Positions 5,973 to 21,084 of a DNA stretch of 27,196 nucleotides are shown piece by piece. The translations under genes and the position numbers were made by a program. A model generated the notes under the pieces. It did not search any database. It was given only the letters and a program-made list of their open reading frames with translations, and was not told the origin of the DNA. Within the stretch, counting starts at the first letter, position 1; every line of letters starts with the position of its first letter. Source of the DNA: a virus; IMG/VR virus record IMGVR_UViG_3300044638_003842, positions 1-27,196 of that record. One strand, written 5' to 3'.

Positions 5973-6312
5973 TAGAGATGAATTAGAAAAAAAATCACTT
6001 GAAGTAATTGAGAAGCATAAATTGTTTTTCATTCAGGATATTATTGCATATCTACCTTGTACAAGTAGTACCTTTTATCATTTGGAATTGGAAAAATCGG
6101 AAAAGATAAAAGATGCACTTACCGAGGTAAAAACAAACCTTAAAGTTAATATGCGTTCCAAGTGGTATAGGTCAGAAAATCCAACCTTGCAGCTGGCGTT
6201 GATGAAGTTAGTTTCTACCGATGAGGAGTTAAGAAAGTTATCAATGCAACATCAGGTGAATGAAGACTTTGAAAAGCCTATCTTCAATGGGATTGATTTG
6301 GATGTAAAATAA
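5962..6312 (+). CDS. Putative terminase small subunit
   Basis: This 116-residue helical protein lies directly before the large terminase, with its stop sharing a base with that start (TAATG). Residues about 20-40 (LFFIQDIIAYLPCTSSTFYHL) could form a helix-turn-helix. They are followed by KWYRSENPTLQLALMKLVST, a segment I recall from putative small terminases of Bacteroidota phages. Small terminase recognises the packaging site on phage DNA and loads the motor. Identification rests on position and this weak similarity. Confidence 0.65.
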   Translation: MAYNRDELEKKSLEVIEKHKLFFIQDIIAYLPCTSSTFYHLELEKSEKIKDALTEVKTNLKVNMRSKWYRSENPTLQLALMKLVSTDEELRKLSMQHQVNEDFEKPIFNGIDLDVK

Positions 6313-7469
6313 TGTTACAAAAGACCACCGCACAAAATAAGATAGCCCAACTCAAAAAAAGGGTTCGCATTGTCAGAGGTGGTACATCCAGTTCCAAGAC
6401 GTTTAGCATTATCCCAATGCTCATTACCTATGCGGTGCAGAAAGAAAACACCGAGATAAGTGTCGTATCGGAATCTATCCCTCATTTGAGGCGTGGTGCT
6501 ATCCGTGATTTTCTTAAAATTATGCAAATGGTGGGGATGTACGATCCCAACAAATGGAATAAGTCATCTTTAACCTATACTTTTTCCAACAATAGTTTTA
6601 TTGAGTTTTTCTCCGCTGACCAACCTGATAAATTAAGGGGTGCAAGGCGTGATGTGTTATTCATCAATGAGTGCAACAACGTAGATTGGGAATCTTATTA
6701 CCAACTTGCTATTCGTACCCGAAAATTTATTTATTTGGATTACAATCCAGTAACTGAATTTTGGGTTGATACGGAACTTGTACATGATGCAGATTCCGAG
6801 ATGATAGTCCTTACCTACAAAGATAATGAGGCGTTGGATTCATCAATCGTTGCCGAGATAGAGAAAGCCAAAGAGAAAGCCGAAACAAGCGAGTATTGGC
6901 GTAATTGGTGGGCAGTTTACGGACTTGGGCAAATTGGAAATCTTGAAGGGGTTATATTCAGCAACTATCAACTAATTGACACCATCCCAAGCGATGCAAG
7001 GTTATTGGGTTGCGGTGTTGACTTTGGTTATTCAGTTGATCCGACTGCAATAGTTGAGGTGTACCAATACAACGACCAAAGGATAATAAAAGAAATTTGT
7101 TACCGTACGGGGATGCTAAATTCCGACATTGCCAAAGTTTTACCAAAAGGAATACCCGTGTATGCTGATTCTGCTGAACCTAAATCAATAGAAGAAATAC
7201 GAAGATTTGGAATCAGTATCAAAGGAGTAACCAAAGGTAAAGATTCTATCAATTATGGTATTCAGGTGATGCAAGGTCAAAACTATATGATAACCAAAGA
7301 TTCAACCAACCTCATAAAAGAACTGCGTGGATATTGCTGGGACAAGGGCAAGGATGGGAAAACCTTACCGATTCCTGTAGGTGATGACCACATCATCGAT
7401 GCGTGGAGGTACTTTGAAATGGAATCACTTGGGTTAAAAAAGAATTTTGGCTCTTACGACATACGTTAA
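6312..7469 (+). CDS. terL: Terminase large subunit
   Basis: This 385-residue protein is the DNA-packaging motor: an N-terminal ATPase plus a C-terminal RNase H-like nuclease that cuts the concatemer. The Walker A variant GGTSSSKT is at 23-30. Walker B with catalytic Glu is DVLFINE at 114-120. Nuclease metal ligands are Asp237 (GVDFGYSVDP), Asp286 (YADSAEP) and Asp358/Asp359/Asp363 (GDDHIIDAWRY). This matches the PBSX/Terminase_3 type and is close to the family's usual 400-430 residues. It starts at a TAATG overlap with the small subunit. The portal gene, normally next, is over 11 kb downstream in this phage. Confidence 0.95.
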   Translation: MLQKTTAQNKIAQLKKRVRIVRGGTSSSKTFSIIPMLITYAVQKENTEISVVSESIPHLRRGAIRDFLKIMQMVGMYDPNKWNKSSLTYTFSNNSFIEFFSADQPDKLRGARRDVLFINECNNVDWESYYQLAIRTRKFIYLDYNPVTEFWVDTELVHDADSEMIVLTYKDNEALDSSIVAEIEKAKEKAETSEYWRNWWAVYGLGQIGNLEGVIFSNYQLIDTIPSDARLLGCGVDFGYSVDPTAIVEVYQYNDQRIIKEICYRTGMLNSDIAKVLPKGIPVYADSAEPKSIEEIRRFGISIKGVTKGKDSINYGIQVMQGQNYMITKDSTNLIKELRGYCWDKGKDGKTLPIPVGDDHIIDAWRYFEMESLGLKKNFGSYDIR

Positions 7470-7500: not shown

Positions 7501-8219
7501 ATGGAAATAACCATACCAACCAAATTGAGTGAAATCCCCTTGTATCAGATGCAAGAATATGAATCCTTGAAAATGGATGCAGAGGAAAGGGCATTGAATG
7601 CGGTTGCAATCTTTTGTAATATCTCTTTATCAGAGGTGAGTAAGTTACCATTAAAGATTTTAAACCACGCCTTGGATTTAATTACCAAGTGTTTGGATGA
7701 GAAACCAAGATTTCAGCATCGTTTTACTTATGAAGGTGTGGAATACGGATTTATCCCTAACTTGGATGAAATCAGTACGGGTGAATTTGTTGACCTTGAT
7801 TCGTATCAGAAAGAAGGAATGGCACTTTGGAAAATGATGTCGGTGCTATATCGCCCCATCGTTACACAAGGGCAAAACAACCGATACTTAATTGCACCTT
7901 ATCAGGGCAAATTAAACGAGAGTTTTAAACAAATGCCAAGTGATATTGCATTCGGATCGCTGGTTTTTTTTTGGAGTTTAGGAAACGATTTAATGAGTTA
8001 TATCCTGAAATTTTCGGAGACGCAGAGGGAAAAACTGATGAACACCAGTTCAACAAAAAATGGGGGTGGATGGGATTCATACATCTCCTCACTGACGGAG
8101 ATGTCACAAAATTTGACGCAGTTAGCAAACTCCCCATGCACACCAATGCGATGTGGGCGGCTTACAAGAGCGACCTGGCAACATTGGAAAGACAAATTAT
8201 TAATAAAGCAAAACGATGA
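7498..8219 (+). CDS. Tail assembly chaperone, -1 frameshift product
   Basis: This would be a join of 7498-7971 with 7971-8219, giving about 240 residues. The ribosome would slip back one base on T-TTT-TTT (7965-7971) and continue in the -1 frame. That frame encodes 82 residues that look like a real domain (FNELYPEIFGDAEGK, HQFNKKWGWMGFIHLLTDGD, KLPMHTNAMWAAYKSDL). The KKWGW and LLTDGDVTKFDAVSKLPMH segments resemble a separate C-terminal chaperone domain I recall in this phage group. Position after terminase and before other tail genes, and the lambda G/GT precedent, support it. Unlike lambda, both products end within four bases of each other and have nearly equal length. The alternative is a homopolymer sequencing error. 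Confidence 0.6.
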
Positions 8220-8223
8220 ATAA
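7498..8223 (+). CDS. Tail assembly chaperone, zero-frame product
   Basis: This is a 241-residue product if no frameshift occurs. The first about 155 residues (MMEITIPTKLSEIPLYQMQEY onward) look like an ordinary folded protein and resemble tail assembly chaperones of Bacteroidota phages (LVFFWSLGNDLMSYIL near 154-169). After the nine-T run the zero frame continues for about 80 residues rich in Ser, Thr, Asn and Arg (LTEMSQNLTQLANS). I recall this kind of tail from related proteins. Chaperones of this kind coat the tape measure during tail assembly, as lambda gpG and gpGT do. The ATG at 7498 sits at the AATCGTTA element; 7501 is also possible, and a TTG at 7447 was rejected because it lies inside terL. 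Confidence 0.7.
   Translation: MMEITIPTKLSEIPLYQMQEYESLKMDAEERALNAVAIFCNISLSEVSKLPLKILNHALDLITKCLDEKPRFQHRFTYEGVEYGFIPNLDEISTGEFVDLDSYQKEGMALWKMMSVLYRPIVTQGQNNRYLIAPYQGKLNESFKQMPSDIAFGSLVFFWSLGNDLMSYILKFSETQREKLMNTSSTKNGGGWDSYISSLTEMSQNLTQLANSPCTPMRCGRLTRATWQHWKDKLLIKQNDE
7965..7971 (+). other. -1 frameshift slippery heptamer
   Basis: The zero frame here reads GTT TTT TTT TGG, so T-TTT-TTT is in the correct X-XXY-YYZ phase for a -1 slip with full re-pairing in both sites. It is part of a run of nine T at 7964-7972. After the slip the next codon is TTG at 7971, leading into the 82-residue -1 frame. I did not identify a clear downstream stimulatory hairpin by eye. Confidence 0.6.
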
Positions 8224-8707
8224 TAACATAGGCACGGCATTCGCCATTGTTCAAGAGATATCAGAGGAATTAGGGTGGAACTATTCCCATGGAAATTTGA
8301 CCGAGATGGGTTTTAAAGCGGTTACGGTTTACCCGTTAACACACTTGACCATTCAAACCGTTCAACTAAACGATTATGTAAGCACCATTCAGATGAATGT
8401 GATTATTGCGGACATTGTCAACTTTTTGAAGGGTGAGAATGAGCAGGAATCTTTGATTACTTTGTATTCCGAGCAAGGGTACACCGAGAATCAAAACTAT
8501 GCCCATATTTTACAGGACCTATATGTGAAATTCAGTTTGAAATTGCGTGAAAAAGAAATGCAATATAATCAATCAATAATGATTCAAAAACCTATTGCAT
8601 TCGTGCCATTCATTGAGGCTGACAAAGATGTGTTGGCTGGTTACAACATCACGATAAATATGGATGTTCAATCACCTTGGGTAACGGACTGCTACAATGA
8701 AGTATAA
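8216..8707 (+). CDS. Probable tail completion or neck protein, unknown family
   Basis: This is a 163-residue protein whose ATG at 8216 overlaps the stop codons of both chaperone frames, so it is translationally linked to them. It is acidic, mixed alpha and beta, with strands such as HLTIQTVQLNDYVSTIQMNVIIA and a C-terminal GYNITINMDVQSPW. It has no signal or membrane segment. Its place between the chaperone and an HK97 gp10-like protein suggests a tail-terminator or head-tail joining role. I do not recognise its family directly. Confidence 0.6.
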   Translation: MNNNIGTAFAIVQEISEELGWNYSHGNLTEMGFKAVTVYPLTHLTIQTVQLNDYVSTIQMNVIIADIVNFLKGENEQESLITLYSEQGYTENQNYAHILQDLYVKFSLKLREKEMQYNQSIMIQKPIAFVPFIEADKDVLAGYNITINMDVQSPWVTDCYNEV

Positions 8708-12974: not shown

Positions 12975-13114
12975 TAACACAAATAATTAAATTAGTCCAA
13001 ACTAACGAGTTTTATGGCGTTAGTTCAAATGTAGAGATAGCCAAAGGGGCGTACCAATATGCCACAACTTGGAAGCAAACATTTAAAAAAGTAAAAAGAT
13101 GGCAGAAAAAATAG
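12971..13114 (+). CDS. Hidden 47-residue protein between tail tip and tape measure
   Basis: An ATG at 12971 overlaps the previous stop as ATGA, and the frame runs 47 codons to TAG at 13112-13114, overlapping the tape-measure start by 16 bases. It encodes a small basic protein (begins MITQIIKLVQTNEFYGVSSN, ends KKVKRWQKK). The tight overlaps at both ends are the pattern of real genes in this window, and it fills what would otherwise be a 124-base gap. It may be a tail accessory protein; no family is recognised. Confidence 0.55.
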   Translation: MITQIIKLVQTNEFYGVSSNVEIAKGAYQYATTWKQTFKKVKRWQKK

Positions 13115-14820
13115 TCATACCAATAGAGGTACAAGGCTCAAAGGCAGTTAAAGACATTAGCAAAGTCAATGATGCCCTTGATAATACGGGCAAGGCTGCC
13201 GAAGGTAGTAAAAAAGGCTTCGGAAGTTTAGCGGGGCTTTTAAAAGGCGGTCTTGGTATTGGGGCGGTAATGTCATTACTTGATAGCCTTGGCGGTGCAT
13301 TGATGGAAAACCAAAAGGTTCAGGATTTAATGAACAAGGCTATGGTGGTTTTTCAGGGCGTTGTCAATGGAGTTATTGAAGTTCTTGAACCATTATTCGG
13401 ATGGTTGGAAAAAGTATTCAAGGATCCAGTTAAATCAATAAAGGAATTTGGCGAATTGGTTAAGCAAAATTTGATTAATCGTTTTAACGGATTATTGGAA
13501 TTGATACCCCAATTAGGTAAAGCCCTTTCATTATTATTTAAGGGTGAGTTTACCGAGGCTGGTAAAGTAGCGGTTAACGCCTTTGGAAAGGTTGCACTTG
13601 GTGTTGAAGATACCGTTGGTTTAGTTGAAAAAGGTGTAAAGGTGGTAAGTGATGCGGTTGTAAAAATAGGCAAAGCCACAAAGAAAGCATTTGACAACAA
13701 AGATGCCCTTGCGGCTGCCGAAAACAACCTTGCGAGATTATCAATTTTGTTTCAGGGTATCGTTGAGAAATATGATTTGATGGCTGAAAAGCAAAGGCAG
13801 TTGAGGGATGATGAAACCAAAACCATTGAAGAACGTATAAAAGCAAATGAGGAATTATCAAAGGTACTGGATGAAGGGCAGAAAAAAGAACGTGAAAACA
13901 TTGAAGCCCGTATTGGCATCATCCAAATGCAAAATAATCTTTTGGGTAAAACCAAAGAACGGACAAACGAAATATTATCGCTTCAACAAGAATTAACGGG
14001 GATTGACGCTAAATATGCTGGTCTTAAATCCGAGCAATTAACAAATATCAATTCACTTGAAAAAGAGAAAATCGAGTTAAAACGTGCCGAGGTTGAAGGA
14101 ACACTTGAAGCGAATAAGATTATTGCAGATAGCGAAGCCGAATTGGCTGCCGAGGGAATGGATCAGTTTGAGAAAAAAATGGCTGCCATCCAACAAGAAT
14201 TTGAAGCCCGAAGAAAGTTGCTTGATGATGAGATAAGCCAGTTGAAAGAAGGAACACAAGCCTATGTTGATGCAACAAATGAAAAGAAAGTCTTGGATGC
14301 TCAATATACGGCAGACACAAAAGCCCTTGCCAAAGAACGTGCGGACTACGAAACCGAACAGGCGAAATTAGTTGCCGAAAACCAAATGAGTGCCGTGATG
14401 GGTGCTTTAAGTGGTGTTCAATCGTTGGTTGGAGAAAATTCAAAATTCGGTAAAGCCTTGGCAGTGTCTATGGCAATTATTGACACTTATTCAGGGGCAA
14501 CCAAAGCACTTGCACAAGGTGGTACATTTGGATTTATTGGTGCTGCTGGTGTTATCGCTTCGGGTTTGGCGAATGTCAGAGCGATAATGCAACAAGAATT
14601 GCCAGGCGTTGAAGGTGATAGTTCGGGCGGTGGAGTTTCAATGACTGCACCCACAGGACCAAATGTGGGTATAATTAGCGGTCAGATAAATTCATCGGCT
14701 CAATTACTTGGTAGTTTGAATAATTCATTAAGCACCCCACCAAGGGCGTACGTTGTCGGTCAAGATGTAAACTCACAACAATCACTTGATAGGCATATCA
14801 GACAAAATGCAACACTATAA
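13099..14820 (+). CDS. Tail tape measure protein
   Basis: This 573-residue protein sets tail length and is thought to enter the host envelope on infection. It shows a short N-terminal strand (KIVIPIEVQGSKAVKDISKV) and a hydrophobic, Gly-rich segment at about 41-70 (SLAGLLKGGLGIGAVMSLLD). Long charged coiled coils follow at about 200-430 (Glu-, Lys- and Gln-rich). A C-terminal hydrophobic domain at about 445-500 (MAIIDTYSGATKALAQ, then FGFIGAAGVIASGLANVRAI) is typical of Bacteroidota phage tape measures. At the usual about 0.15 nm per residue the tail would be about 85 nm, short to medium for a siphovirus. It precedes the head genes here. Confidence 0.9.
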   Translation: MAEKIVIPIEVQGSKAVKDISKVNDALDNTGKAAEGSKKGFGSLAGLLKGGLGIGAVMSLLDSLGGALMENQKVQDLMNKAMVVFQGVVNGVIEVLEPLFGWLEKVFKDPVKSIKEFGELVKQNLINRFNGLLELIPQLGKALSLLFKGEFTEAGKVAVNAFGKVALGVEDTVGLVEKGVKVVSDAVVKIGKATKKAFDNKDALAAAENNLARLSILFQGIVEKYDLMAEKQRQLRDDETKTIEERIKANEELSKVLDEGQKKERENIEARIGIIQMQNNLLGKTKERTNEILSLQQELTGIDAKYAGLKSEQLTNINSLEKEKIELKRAEVEGTLEANKIIADSEAELAAEGMDQFEKKMAAIQQEFEARRKLLDDEISQLKEGTQAYVDATNEKKVLDAQYTADTKALAKERADYETEQAKLVAENQMSAVMGALSGVQSLVGENSKFGKALAVSMAIIDTYSGATKALAQGGTFGFIGAAGVIASGLANVRAIMQQELPGVEGDSSGGGVSMTAPTGPNVGIISGQINSSAQLLGSLNNSLSTPPRAYVVGQDVNSQQSLDRHIRQNATL

Positions 14821-14844: not shown

Positions 14845-15174
14845 CAAAAGAGAGTAATAAATATCCAATTTGCGGATAACCCAGGTGATGTATCAAAAAA
14901 AATTAAAAGTGCAATAGATTCAAGCGATGAAGTTGCATCAAGAATGCAAAGAATTGCCGTTGATGTGGGCAACTGGGCATTATCTATCAATAACGCTTTA
15001 AAGGTTTTGAATGATGCTAAAAGTACCGCTAAATTAGGTAGAATGCAATCGGAAAGAGCAAAACAAAAGGATGCCGCAAAACAATGGGGTAAACTTGAAG
15101 GACAGGCAATTGATGCGATTAACAAATACTCAAAATTAGCCAAAGCGGTTCAATCACTTGACAAAGTATTATAA
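14842..15174 (+). CDS. Small helical protein of head block, unknown
   Basis: This is a 110-residue, mostly helical and basic protein (begins MQKRVINIQFADNPGDV; KVLNDAKSTAKLGRMQSERA in the middle). It is preceded by the AATCGTTA element and its stop shares a base with the protease start (TAATG). A second protein of equal size, also starting MQK, flanks the protease on the other side at 15742. The pair may be internal head, scaffold-helper or decoration proteins. No family is recognised. Confidence 0.55.
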   Translation: MQKRVINIQFADNPGDVSKKIKSAIDSSDEVASRMQRIAVDVGNWALSINNALKVLNDAKSTAKLGRMQSERAKQKDAAKQWGKLEGQAIDAINKYSKLAKAVQSLDKVL

Positions 15175-15761
15175 TGAAAATCGTTGAATTGATTTTGGAT
15201 GAAGATAGTAAGGTAAGCGGTATTGATGCAATCAGTATCGTTGAAAGCCCCGCCATCGAATCCAATTTTATAGCACTAAACAACCATCAAGTGAAATTTG
15301 CCACCGTTGACACGGATAAGCGGATTTTGATGGGACCTGCCTTAATTCCAAATAAACCAATTTACCGCAACCAAGACGGTGAGGAGTTTTATGTTTATTT
15401 TTCCAAGGCTACCATCGAGAAGGCGATGCAGTTGTACTTGAAAAAGGGCAACCAACACAACGCAACTTTGGAACACGATGGTAAAATCAATGGTTTGACA
15501 TTGGTTGAATCTTGGATTAAAGTAGATGCCGAAAAAGATAAGAGTGCAGCCTATGGGATGAACGATCCAGTAGGTACTTGGTACGTATCAATGAAAGTTG
15601 ATAACGAAGAAATTTGGCAAGAATATGTGAAGAGTGGTAAAGTAAAGGGATTTTCCATTGAAGGTTTCTTTGCCGATAAATCAACCACTATGAGCAAAGA
15701 GGAAATGATGTTAACCGAACTAAAAAAATTATTAAAACTATATGCAAAAGAAAGCAATTAA
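15174..15761 (+). CDS. XkdF-like prohead serine protease
   Basis: This 195-residue protein matches the XkdF-type phage protease (Peptidase_S78_2). It has an N-terminal strand and VSGIDAISIVESPAIESNF, then RILMGPALIPNKPIYR. The likely catalytic His101 is in TLEHDGKINGL. A DPVGTWYVSMKVDNEEIW segment follows, and the likely catalytic Ser161 is in VKGFSIEGFF. Such enzymes cleave scaffold and capsid proteins during head maturation. The protein is the bare protease. The extra C-terminal modules that, from memory, often follow XkdF in this phage group are instead found on the portal (18868-21084). It precedes the scaffold-like and capsid genes. Confidence 0.85.
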   Translation: MKIVELILDEDSKVSGIDAISIVESPAIESNFIALNNHQVKFATVDTDKRILMGPALIPNKPIYRNQDGEEFYVYFSKATIEKAMQLYLKKGNQHNATLEHDGKINGLTLVESWIKVDAEKDKSAAYGMNDPVGTWYVSMKVDNEEIWQEYVKSGKVKGFSIEGFFADKSTTMSKEEMMLTELKKLLKLYAKESN

Positions 15762-16071
15762 AATAAACCTTGCCTTATTAGACGAGGCTTCTAAAGTTAC
15801 TCAAAACGCAATTACGGCACGAAAAGAATTAATTCAATTTGTTCAAGATTTGCAAAAAATCAGTTCATTGGTTGACAAAGCAAAAGCAAAGGCAAAAGAA
15901 GGTAACGGCATTTACGATAATGGTAAATCAGTTGCAACAAAAATTGCAAGTCAAATGGAGAATATAGGTATTGAGCCAAGGAGTAGTGCTGAATACAATA
16001 AATTGTGGGAAGCAATAAATGATGTTCAAGACGAAATTTCAAAAATTGAATATTACACCAAAAATTTCTAA
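15742..16071 (+). CDS. Small helical protein of head block, unknown
   Basis: This is a 109-residue helical, Lys-rich protein (begins MQKKAIKINLALLDEASKV; then KISSLVDKAKAKAKEG). It overlaps the protease gene by 20 bases. It matches the protein at 14842 in length, N-terminal MQK and overall helix content, although I cannot align the rest convincingly. It could be an internal head protein, a scaffold helper or a protease substrate. It is followed by a 38-base gap that carries the third AATCGTTA element. Confidence 0.55.
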   Translation: MQKKAIKINLALLDEASKVTQNAITARKELIQFVQDLQKISSLVDKAKAKAKEGNGIYDNGKSVATKIASQMENIGIEPRSSAEYNKLWEAINDVQDEISKIEYYTKNF

Positions 16072-16092
16072 AAACCCAACACCATTTAAAAC

Positions 16093-16112
16093 AATCGTTA
16101 ATTAATTATATG
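16093..16112 (+). promoter_or_regulatory. AATCGTTA start-codon element, copy 3
   Basis: AATCGTTAATTAATTAT runs directly into the ATG of the scaffold-like gene at 16110. It is identical to copy 4 before the tail fibre gene over the first 15 bases. It lies in a 38-base gap with no hairpin or Shine-Dalgarno sequence. Confidence 0.5.
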
Positions 16113-16745
16113 AGCAACGCAAAAGACATCCTTAACCGTGTTTACGATATCGTAATGGGTAAGGAATCAACCGAGGAAACAAAGGTTGAATTAGCACAAG
16201 TAAAAACAATGGATGGTGAAGCCATCTTTGATGCAGAGGCGTTTGAAATAGGTAATGCAGTTTTCATCGTAACCGAAGAAGGTAACATCCCCGTACCAAT
16301 GGGCGAATATATGCTTGAAGATGGAATGAAAATTGAAGTTGATGAGCAAGGCGTTATCGTTGAAGTTTCAATCGAAGGCGAAGAAAAAGAAGAGGAAATC
16401 GTTGAAGAAGTTATCGAAGCAAAAGACGAAATTGAAAAAGAGGAAACCGGTATGATGGAATCAATGCCTAAAAAGGTGGTGAAGTCAAAAACCGAAATGG
16501 AAGAATCTTATTTCTCTAAAATCGAAACTCGTTTAAGTGCTATCGAAAAAGCCAACGAAGATTTGAAAGCCGTTAACGTGCAGTTATCTGCCGAGAATGA
16601 AGAGTTGAAAAAGCAACTTGCTGAAAGCCCAGCAGAACACACAAAGTTCAACCCCGAAGCCACTACACAAACCAACGTACAATTTAAACTTGGTGCAAGA
16701 AGAGGCGAAACAATCCAAGATCGAGTATTTAACCAATTATTTTAA
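16110..16745 (+). CDS. Putative capsid scaffolding protein
   Basis: This 211-residue, very acidic protein lies between the protease and the major capsid gene, the usual scaffold position. The N-terminal part has a beta-rich module (EGNIPVPMGEYMLEDGMKIE and VDEQGVIVEVSIEG) that I recall from Bacteroidota phage head proteins. Then comes a long Glu-rich stretch (about 90-115) and a coiled coil (about 130-172: SKIETRLSAIEKANEDLKAV). The basic C-terminus (FKLGARRGETIQDRVFNQLF) may dock onto the capsid protein. Scaffolds guide procapsid assembly and are removed by the protease. A capsid decoration role is an alternative. Confidence 0.65.
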   Translation: MSNAKDILNRVYDIVMGKESTEETKVELAQVKTMDGEAIFDAEAFEIGNAVFIVTEEGNIPVPMGEYMLEDGMKIEVDEQGVIVEVSIEGEEKEEEIVEEVIEAKDEIEKEETGMMESMPKKVVKSKTEMEESYFSKIETRLSAIEKANEDLKAVNVQLSAENEELKKQLAESPAEHTKFNPEATTQTNVQFKLGARRGETIQDRVFNQLF

Positions 16746-18424: not shown

Positions 18425-18871
18425 ATGGTTATCAATAATACCACAACATCTATTTCATTTTTCCCCTTTACATCATTTGACGGTGTAAGTCAAGGGGGCG
18501 GTGGGAATGATTCATTTTTATTACTTGAAAGTGGTGATTTTCTTTTACAAGAAGATGGATCAAAATTTGTACTTGCGTACGCTGGTGGTACGGTAGATGT
18601 TGAGGTGTGGCATAAAAACACAAAAACAATGGTTGAAGCAGAATCATCAGTTACAATAGTAGGCAGCAAGGTGACGGTAACTTTGCCGTCATTGTCAAAC
18701 ATTACTGCGGTGGCACAGGACCTCGATACTATTTTAATTAGAATTAAATACGAAGGAAAGTTGATGTGGGAATATGTGGCTACTTGGTCAACCGAATCAA
18801 CAAACATTAATAATACCTTTAAAACTTGGGATACAACTGCTGACGAAAGCCCTGAATGGATAACGATATGA
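18425..18871 (+). CDS. Small virion-type protein with ESGDFLLQEDG hairpin repeat
   Basis: This is a 148-residue acidic, beta-rich protein. Residues 32-50 form two tandem copies of a short beta motif (LLLESGDF and LLQEDGSKF), a pattern I recall in structural proteins of freshwater and marine phages. The remainder alternates strands (VDVEVWHKNTKTMVE; SSVTIVGSKVTVTLPS), like an immunoglobulin-type or tail-attached domain. Its stop overlaps the portal start (ATGA at 18868). It lies just downstream of the second terminator; I saw no matching promoter in the 91-base gap, so it may depend on readthrough. It could be a tail- or head-decorating protein. Confidence 0.6.
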   Translation: MVINNTTTSISFFPFTSFDGVSQGGGGNDSFLLLESGDFLLQEDGSKFVLAYAGGTVDVEVWHKNTKTMVEAESSVTIVGSKVTVTLPSLSNITAVAQDLDTILIRIKYEGKLMWEYVATWSTESTNINNTFKTWDTTADESPEWITI

Positions 18872-21084
18872 GTAATTTGAAATTTATACAATTAGAAACC
18901 TATACAAGCCCAACCATCGTTGAGCAAAAAAATAAAGAGTGGGTTGAATACGGTCAGGATAATAACTATTATCAATACCTTATTGACCTTTACTACGGCT
19001 CTGCAACCAATAACGCTTGTATAAAAGGTATATCAGATTTAATCTACGGGGATGGTTTAGAGGTGGTTCGTGCCGATAGGCATTTATCGGGTTACCTTGA
19101 CTTAAAAAAACTATTTCACGAAGATTGTTTGCGAAATGCTGCAATGGATTTGAAGATGCTTGGTCAATGTGCTATTCACTTGGTTAAGTCCAAGGATAGA
19201 AAAAAGTACGTTAAGGCTGAACATTGGGCAATTCAAACTTTACGCCCTGAAAAATGCAACGATAAAGGGGAAATTGAAGGCTATTATTTTGCACCTGATT
19301 GGAGTAAATTAAAGAGAGGTCAAAAACCACACCGATTTGCTGCCTTTGGCTTTGATGAAAATGCAACCGAGTGCGTATTGGTTATTAAACCTTACTCAAC
19401 GGGTAACTATTATTTCAGCCCAGTAGATTACCAAGGGGGTACACAATGGGCAGAACTTGAAACCGAGATTTCAAACTATCATATCAATAACATCAAGAAC
19501 GGAATGGCTCCGTCAATGTTGATTAACTTCAACAACGGACAACCACCAGCAGAGGTTAAAGATATGATTGAAGCCCAAATCATCAATAAGTTCACAGGCT
19601 CATCAAATACGGGTAAGTTTATCCTATCGTTTAACGATAACGCAGAAAGCAAAGCGGACATAACACCCGTTCAGTTATCTGACGCACATAACCAATATCA
19701 GTTCCTTTCAACGGAATCAATGCAAAAGGTAATGATGTCGCACCGTGTGACCTCACCAATGCTTTTAGGTATAAAAGACCAAACTGGATTCGGTAATAAT
19801 GCAGAGGAGTTAAAAACCGCATCTATATTATTTGATAACACGGTTATAAGACCTTTCCAAAGATTGCTTTTAGATGGTGTGAGAAAGATAATGAACGCCA
19901 ATGGTTACAACTTGGACATTTATTTCAAGACATTGCAGCCTTTGGAGTTTACTGATTTATCGGGTAAGGTAGTAAACGAAGAAACAAAAGAAAAGGAATT
20001 TGGATTCAGTAAAGTTGAACTTGTTAAACCTAACCCAAGTGAGAGCAAAGATGATTTTTTAGCACGTTGCATCCCTGTTGTCGTTAAAGAGGGCAAGGAT
20101 GCGGATCAAGCGGCTGCAATTTGTTATTCATATTTTGAAGGTGAGAAGGTAGAACTTGAAGAATCATTCACCGATTACCCCGAAGGGGCATCCAACAACG
20201 CTAAAAGGGCGTTAAAATGGGTGATGCAACACGGTTGGGGTGACTGCGGTACAAACGTAGGTAAAGCAAGGGCGCACCAATTAGCCAATAAAGAACCCAT
20301 CTCAATTGAGACGGTTAAAAGAATGGCTGCATTTCGTAGGCATCAACAAAACAAAGATGTGCCATATTCCCAAGGATGTGGTGGATTGATGTGGGATGCT
20401 TGGGGCGGTGACGCTGGAATCCGTTGGGCAGAAACCAAGGTTAACAATTTGCAGTTAAGTGCAGACTTACCCGAATTTACCGAGGAAATAGAGAACGAAT
20501 GGTTGGACTATTTGAAAGACAAAGGCGAAGTTATTGGTGAGGAGTTTGAATTGATTGATGAAAGCCCCGTTACTGATGACAACGAATATAAGTTTTTCAA
20601 AAGATTTGCCAACCCCGAAGATAAAAGCAAGGATGATAAAGGGGTTTACCTGATTCGCTACCGATACGCACCAATGAGTGCAAGTGGTAACTCTCGTCAA
20701 TTCTGCAAAGATATGGTTGCCAATGCCAAGTTAGGCGTGGTATACCGAAGAGAGGACATTGATACGATGGGCGATGATGGAATAAACGGTCAATTTGCCC
20801 CAAGTGGAAAATCAAATTACTCTATTTGGAAGTACAAAGGGGGCGTGAATTGTAAACATCAATGGTATCGCTTGACCTATATGCGTAAACGTGTGAGTGG
20901 TGGTAAGTTTATCCCATTGACACCCGAAGAGAAAAGCCAAGCCATCAAAGATTTGGACAATTACAAAAGGGTAAGTAACCAAAGTGCGGATGCAGCTGGT
21001 GTACCTTTCAGTCCACCTGATTGGCAAACCGCATCAACCAAGACCATTGATTTACCGAACAAAGGAAGTTTAAAGAATAAATAA
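18868..21084 (+). CDS. Portal protein fused to C-terminal protease-associated modules
   Basis: This is a 738-residue protein. Residues 1 to about 370 are a portal: the dodecameric DNA gate at the head vertex (YFSPVDYQGGTQWAELETEI, then ISNYHINNIKNGMAPSMLIN, KFILSFND, QYQFLSTES and SHRVTSPMLLGIKDQTGFG). After it come three extra modules. One is KPNPSESKDDFLARCIP with DADQAAAICYSYF (388-427). One is a basic helical module with NNAKRALKW, CGTNVGKARAHQLAN, ETVKRMAAFRRHQ and GGDAGIRWAE (434-530). The last is a C-terminal module with YRYAPMSASGNSRQFCKDM, GVNCKHQWYR and a DLPNKGSLKN end. From memory these modules more often follow the prohead protease, so this is an unusual fusion. The start 18868 is an ATGA overlap; 18856 is an alternative. 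Confidence 0.85.
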   Translation: MSNLKFIQLETYTSPTIVEQKNKEWVEYGQDNNYYQYLIDLYYGSATNNACIKGISDLIYGDGLEVVRADRHLSGYLDLKKLFHEDCLRNAAMDLKMLGQCAIHLVKSKDRKKYVKAEHWAIQTLRPEKCNDKGEIEGYYFAPDWSKLKRGQKPHRFAAFGFDENATECVLVIKPYSTGNYYFSPVDYQGGTQWAELETEISNYHINNIKNGMAPSMLINFNNGQPPAEVKDMIEAQIINKFTGSSNTGKFILSFNDNAESKADITPVQLSDAHNQYQFLSTESMQKVMMSHRVTSPMLLGIKDQTGFGNNAEELKTASILFDNTVIRPFQRLLLDGVRKIMNANGYNLDIYFKTLQPLEFTDLSGKVVNEETKEKEFGFSKVELVKPNPSESKDDFLARCIPVVVKEGKDADQAAAICYSYFEGEKVELEESFTDYPEGASNNAKRALKWVMQHGWGDCGTNVGKARAHQLANKEPISIETVKRMAAFRRHQQNKDVPYSQGCGGLMWDAWGGDAGIRWAETKVNNLQLSADLPEFTEEIENEWLDYLKDKGEVIGEEFELIDESPVTDDNEYKFFKRFANPEDKSKDDKGVYLIRYRYAPMSASGNSRQFCKDMVANAKLGVVYRREDIDTMGDDGINGQFAPSGKSNYSIWKYKGGVNCKHQWYRLTYMRKRVSGGKFIPLTPEEKSQAIKDLDNYKRVSNQSADAAGVPFSPPDWQTASTKTIDLPNKGSLKNK

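Follow-up and report, generated by a model that had tools for sequence, protein, structure and literature searches.

A viral DNA stretch of 27,196 nucleotides (IMG/VR record IMGVR_UViG_3300044638_003842; hereafter the window) carries a gene that, with a probability of roughly 0.6 on comparative grounds, encodes two proteins with a common N-terminal domain, the shift between them arising mainly by transcriptional slippage and the two products forming a pair similar to G/GT of phage lambda. By comparison with relatives, zero-frame reading leads to a helical tail (83 codons here, in most relatives about 50-65), and a net shift of -1 at a T run leads to a helical domain of about 82 codons under its own purifying selection. 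In the proposed mechanism, RNA polymerase would add one U when copying a nine-T run, and the resulting U10 mRNA would be translated normally into the fusion, while U8 or U11 mRNAs would yield the N domain with a stop a few codons on; the ribosome, slipping on T_TTT_TTT, may contribute as well. The two forms would act in tail assembly, where the fusion would bring in a second partner by means of its added domain, and at the -1 stop (ATGA) ribosomes would pass to the next gene. The odds appear to be about even for a wider proposal: that throughout a family of Bacteroidota phages the balance between two structural-assembly proteins is set in transcription, by slippage of RNA polymerase on an obligatory run of nine or more T with some 55 codons under selection in two frames after it.

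Gene layout and slip site

The zero-frame ORF (7501-8223, + strand, 240 aa; phrog_32199, E 3.7e-22) consists of the shared N-terminal domain, an alpha/beta fold of 157 aa (7501-7971) with AF2 pLDDT mostly above 90, and the zero-frame tail. The nine T at 7964-7972 are the sole T run of at least eight on the + strand of the window. Read from the ATG at 7501, the codons are GTT (7963-7965), TTT, TTT (7969-7971) and TGG, and T_TTT_TTT (7965-7971) is thus in slippery phase, as the first-pass annotation had claimed; the run is real and is conserved in all sampled relatives. The -1 frame (7971-8219, + strand) begins with TTG at 7971, extends for 82 codons to the TGA at 8217-8219 and encodes the all-helical C-terminal domain of a predicted 239-aa fusion. 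The zero frame stays open for 83 codons past the run, to the TAA at 8221-8223, and the third (+1) frame is closed two codons past the run by a TAG (7979-7981).

The next gene (8216-8707, + strand, 163 aa) starts with an ATG that overlaps the -1 stop as ATGA, a probable case of translational coupling that is found in 159/272 relatives. An overlap of this ATG with both stop codons had been proposed, and it holds for the -1 stop only: the zero-frame TAA begins two bases past the end of the ATG at 8216. Likewise, the two products are nearly equal in length in the window's clade, as had been noted, but not in most relatives, with their shorter zero frame.

Conservation of the T run and the -1 domain

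Relatives were collected by scans of IMG/VR and of GTDB genomes, each scan giving the best 80 of up to approximately 590 matches, and together with one phage record these yielded at least 419 loci in addition to that of the window. Two domain profiles applied to 420 records, window included, found the N domain in 418, the C domain in 412 and both in 411; L101 and L102 (without N) and seven records with N but without C, mostly at contig ends, were left out, and removal of repeats of the same N-to-slip stretch reduced the 411 to 336 distinct sequences. An earlier set, which predates the last scan, held 341 records with both domains (289 distinct) and left out the window itself (L186), four records with N but without C, and L102. 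Pairwise changes and stop positions were counted on the 272 of these 289 having both stops and a start, and the nulls for zero-frame openness were run on 124 representatives of the 272, omitting L332 (inner stop) and over-short -1 frames. Loci of the last scan enter only the run-length and phase, RNA-structure, flanking-codon, third-frame and parsimony analyses, the last using a tree of 333 of the 336 distinct sequences thinned to 81 representatives with less than 60% identity. Distant relatives with other slip sites may lie outside the best 80 matches per scan.

Within this sample, all 411 records that have both domains (336 distinct; best 80 matches per scan) carry the second one in the -1 frame, which supports the -1 shift with two products put forward in the first-pass annotation. 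An unbroken stretch of nine or more T marks the junction in 336/336 distinct sequences (T9 in 304, T10 in 30, T11 in one and T12 in one), and no T7 or T8 run was seen among these 336, drawn from the best 80 matches per scan. The window's own clade comprises 11 distinct records including the window, all with T9 at the same site, and T9 is also present in three contigs of bacteria (L183-L185), including one from the cultured Galbibacter pacificus, in two more genome matches and in Nonlabens phage P12024S. The third frame is closed within 12 codons in 336/336 sequences and within four codons in 309. Chance can be excluded for the -1 frame, given this 411/411 conservation and the null model of zero-frame openness described below. 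One record, L187 (1719-1835), has a T9 but a -1 frame cut short at 38 codons past it. Relatives were found in 3/397 genomes of the family of genome G001 (G001 among them) and in 1/395 genomes of its phylum (G001 itself), and prophages of this kind are therefore rare.

The two domains correspond to PHROG 32199 and PHROG 38404, which are gp38 and gp39 of Nonlabens phages P12024S/L and homologues of the N and -1 domains, respectively; the membership of gp39 in PHROG 38404 is deduced from its length. In P12024S they are annotated as separate hypothetical genes, without a frameshift, and the record (NC_018271; L001, 2001-2695) could be re-annotated as a frameshift gene.

Run length, heptamer and the mechanism of the shift

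The run occurs in all three codon phases (phase 2 in 292, phase 1 in 35 and phase 3 in nine of the 336 distinct sequences), and by simple arithmetic T_TTT_TTT requires nine, eight or seven T in codon phase 1, 2 or 3. Every sampled combination of length and phase thus holds the heptamer in phase, yet no run is shorter than T9 in phase 2 (0/292) or phase 3 (0/9), though eight and seven would suffice there. The codon after two TTT is T-first in 292/292 phase-2 cases (first run codon NTT), while the codon after the third TTT is T-first in only 1/35 phase-1 cases (first run codon TTT). At the protein level, 262/262 phase-2 T9 cases have W, Y, S or C directly after the pair of Phe codons, and the 34 phase-1 T9 cases, in which the T's are supplied by the third TTT, have V, I or L after the run. 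The length and phase state changes 13 times by parsimony on the 81-row tree, so that the length is both kept in all phases and re-formed, as selection for run length predicts.

The RNA-DNA hybrid in transcription is about nine pairs long, and genes with programmed transcriptional slippage produce mRNAs that have gained or lost nucleotides at the run. In the relevant passages of PMC1088944 and PMC5009743, nine A/T is the threshold for transcriptional slippage, eight As are called non-slippery, and A/T runs that reach a length of nine are avoided by many bacterial genomes. The same passages describe mxiE, spa13 and IS-element genes, whose A or T runs serve programmed transcriptional slippage (PMC1088944, PMC5009743). 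The present gene resembles them in having at least nine T in the coding strand, in that one added nucleotide would join two ORFs, and in keeping a run of at least nine A/T without regard to codon phase (336/336, three phases); it differs from them in its conservation across a phage family and its approximately 55 two-frame codons, and in being known from sequence alone. Searches of the open-licence PMC literature brought up no account of transcriptional slippage acting in a phage tail gene.

A length that is independent of phase appears to be a better fit to slippage of RNA polymerase than to a ribosomal frameshift alone. A purely ribosomal -1 shift, with tRNA-Phe pairs slipping on T_TTT_TTT and the extra T's being incidental or serving the flanking amino acids, is given somewhat under one chance in three. 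The X_XXY_YYZ heptamer of ribosomal -1 frameshift genes is matched by T_TTT_TTT in every run seen, hence in all 336 distinct sequences, the phase-1 T9 is exactly what the heptamer needs, and known tail-chaperone shifts are described as ribosomal in the portions of PMC5009743 that deal with them. This reading is opposed by the absence of runs under nine T in phases 2 and 3 and by the post-run residue, which switches between W/Y/S/C and V/I/L with how the T9 is completed. It is also opposed by the lack of any U_UUU_UUC variant in an 8-T run among the relatives sampled and by a downstream RNA structure that is not above control (mean z 0.01 for 147 representatives versus -0.24 in controls, pseudoknots not covered). 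A Shine-Dalgarno-like motif lies 4-20 nt upstream in 19/147 representatives versus 0/147 at one control position. The first-pass annotation had assumed a ribosomal slip, and while the heptamer is indeed present, at least nine T in every phase point at least equally to RNA polymerase; since fusion by one extra U equals fusion by a ribosomal -1 shift, sequence alone cannot decide between the two. Far less probable is an internal start that would make the -1 frame a gene of its own, as annotated for gp39 of P12024S: the window's TTG at 7971 can act as a start and gp38 and gp39 are annotated apart, but the junction has no conserved start, the -1 frame of relatives opening also with TTA or GTC, homology begins at the run itself, and the junction of at least nine T would be left unexplained. 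The least credible reading of all is a gene that varies in phase or is decaying, or a T run with miscalled bases. Homopolymers are generally prone to indels and miscalls, but 0/411 records have N and C in one frame, the 11 distinct records of the window's clade all have T9, and constraint is strong in both frames; phase variation and sequencing error were rejected, no run-length variant being found that fuses the frames. An assembly error in the window's own T count is unlikely, given T9 in 11/11 of its clade and at least nine T in wider relatives.

Two-frame coding after the run

The zero frame stays open past the run for a median of 57 codons. When the -1 protein was held fixed and synonymous codons were drawn at random, 3.9% of trials kept the zero frame open through 50 codons, while it is open over that length in 95% of the 124 representatives. 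Zero-frame stops are avoided in the first 50 codon positions, with 15/6200 there versus 403/2831 after the first zero-frame stop. At the amino-acid level, zero-frame L160, G161, D163, L164 and some hydrophobic positions farther on show identity above the null in distant pairs (0.90 versus 0.35 for L164). The overall excess in zero-frame identity is modest (0.279 versus 0.202 in the null), and since a baseline excess exists outside the zero-frame ORF (0.241 versus 0.189), part of it is baseline.

The share of changes falling at -1 third positions was determined in 82 independent close pairs (63 short-tail and 19 long-tail). In short-tail pairs it is 0.32 in codons 1-20, 0.46 from there to the zero-frame stop and 0.58 after it, and in long-tail pairs, the window's kind, the same three intervals (codons 1-20, middle and last) give 0.55, 0.49 and 0.82. 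These patterns show a zero-frame amino-acid constraint that is clear in short-tail clades and weak in long-tail clades, where few changes are available; beyond codon 55 no such constraint was detected in the 19 long-tail close pairs. On family evidence, the stretch under selection in both frames in the window corresponds to about codons 1-55 after the run (7973-8136), and the clade-specific rest of the zero frame (8137-8220) is open without visible zero-frame amino-acid constraint. Selection in two frames over about 250 bases, as had been suggested, is therefore upheld for the first 50-55 codons or so and not for the last 28 or so, where 45/55 changes within the window's clade fall at zero-frame second positions.

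The window's last zero-frame codons are nevertheless open beyond expectation (P 0.039 or 0.006 under two codon-usage nulls), an uneven effect, as the first null gives P of at least 0.2 in 4/13 long-tail representatives. The zero-frame stop lies 4 or 7 nt past the -1 stop in 55/63 cases, and we infer that this late openness lets both ribosome streams reach the start of the next gene.

Predicted products and possible role

AF2 modelled the zero-frame product with pLDDT 87.8 and pTM 0.77, with a confident N domain and a helix (residues 147-183) that crosses the slip site into the zero-frame tail, and the -1 domain alone as all-helical with moderate confidence (pLDDT 77.4, pTM 0.55). Neither product matched a family in Pfam or NCBIfam, the best matches of the PDB sequence search had E above 0.1, and all PDB Foldseek matches had E above 1 (best 2.0 for the zero-frame product). 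VIA-align found for the zero-frame product only helix arrangements at about residues 154-216, with Z up to 6.9, below the level that the tool deems meaningful for helices, and for the -1 domain a best Z of 2.8. The BFVD relatives are uncharacterised phage proteins, one from Nonlabens phage P12024S, with a single 'Tail assembly chaperone' match at E 0.64; certain BFVD targets, 226-267 aa long, are matched by both models and may represent fusions in a single frame. PHROG 32199 matches the N domain in 69/69 rows and PHROG 38404 the -1 domain in 20/68 rows, with E up to 0.1. Matches to the 'tail protein' phrog_166 (6/69 rows, best E 2.4e-4) were set aside; one alignment places residues 2-75 of L178 on the C-terminal part of the profile (E 0.056).

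The lambda gene for gpG/gpGT has the slip site GGGAAAG, and genes of this type lie directly upstream of the tape-measure gene and behind the major tail protein gene, their products binding the tape measure and the major tail protein and being absent from the virion. The present gene is like it in that one gene with a -1 shift before its end gives two products sharing an N domain (by comparison only, from the 411/411 records and the constraint on both frames) and in lying within the structural gene block. It is unlike it in its slip site of T9 or longer, in the lack of any sequence or fold match, and in its position beside the gene of the terminase large subunit (TerL; 6312-7469, + strand; Terminase_3, phrog_2), with a probable tape-measure gene (13099-14820, + strand; phrog_21537, phrog_3336) as the fifth gene downstream, 4.9 kb away. 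According to the sections consulted of PMC5009743, the two lambda forms control tail assembly at a fixed ratio of 30:1, and in those of PMC10885494 the zero frame past the slip averages 26-36 nt in known chaperone sets, as against the median of 57 codons here.

The tail-chaperone label of the first-pass annotation thus stands as an analogy to lambda G/GT, under which such a role is plausible; given the adjacency of TerL and the lack of a Pfam, NCBIfam, PDB-sequence or PDB-fold match, the gene is not filed as a G/GT member. A true two-product frameshift gene whose products are instead a head or packaging factor or similar, which would be compatible with any mechanism, is a substantial possibility, although it falls short of an even chance. 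TerL adjoins the gene here and in Nonlabens phage P12024S, where the homologous gene likewise follows it, and no chaperone family is matched. The shared-N-domain pair is, on the other hand, a hallmark of G/GT, and the gene stands first in the block leading to the tape measure, a position that together with the two-product design suggests a G/GT-like role. The same role is favoured by the ten relatives inspected (L068, L069, L063, L213, L191, L181, L276, L279, L219 and L158), in which the gene is preceded at a short distance by a terminator-like hairpin followed by nine T, about 500-550 bases before the slip; it looks like an intrinsic terminator that separates the gene from the upstream genes in those relatives. 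Several relatives have such upstream T9 runs (about 520 bases before the slip), and 10/10 inspected follow hairpins.

Elsewhere in the window, the portal ORF (18856-21084, 742 aa) matches portal proteins at residues 8-366 only and phrog_2859 at 442-530, and it looks like a portal fused with further domains. ORFs 15174-15761 and 16110-16745 match consecutive parts (4-196 and 202-280) of phrog_24921, with ORF 15742-16071 between them, and a protease- or scaffold-like gene seems to be split at 15174-16745.

Implications

The locus is a case of long two-frame coding of a kind that gene callers split or miss. A run of at least nine T that is invariant across codon phases offers a clean comparative test of the slippage mechanism, and the Nonlabens phages P12024S/L provide a cultured system for the frameshift gene. 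If the proposed mechanism is true, recoding in tail assembly would have moved from the ribosome to the polymerase, and these phages would reach the same end by way of the polymerase.
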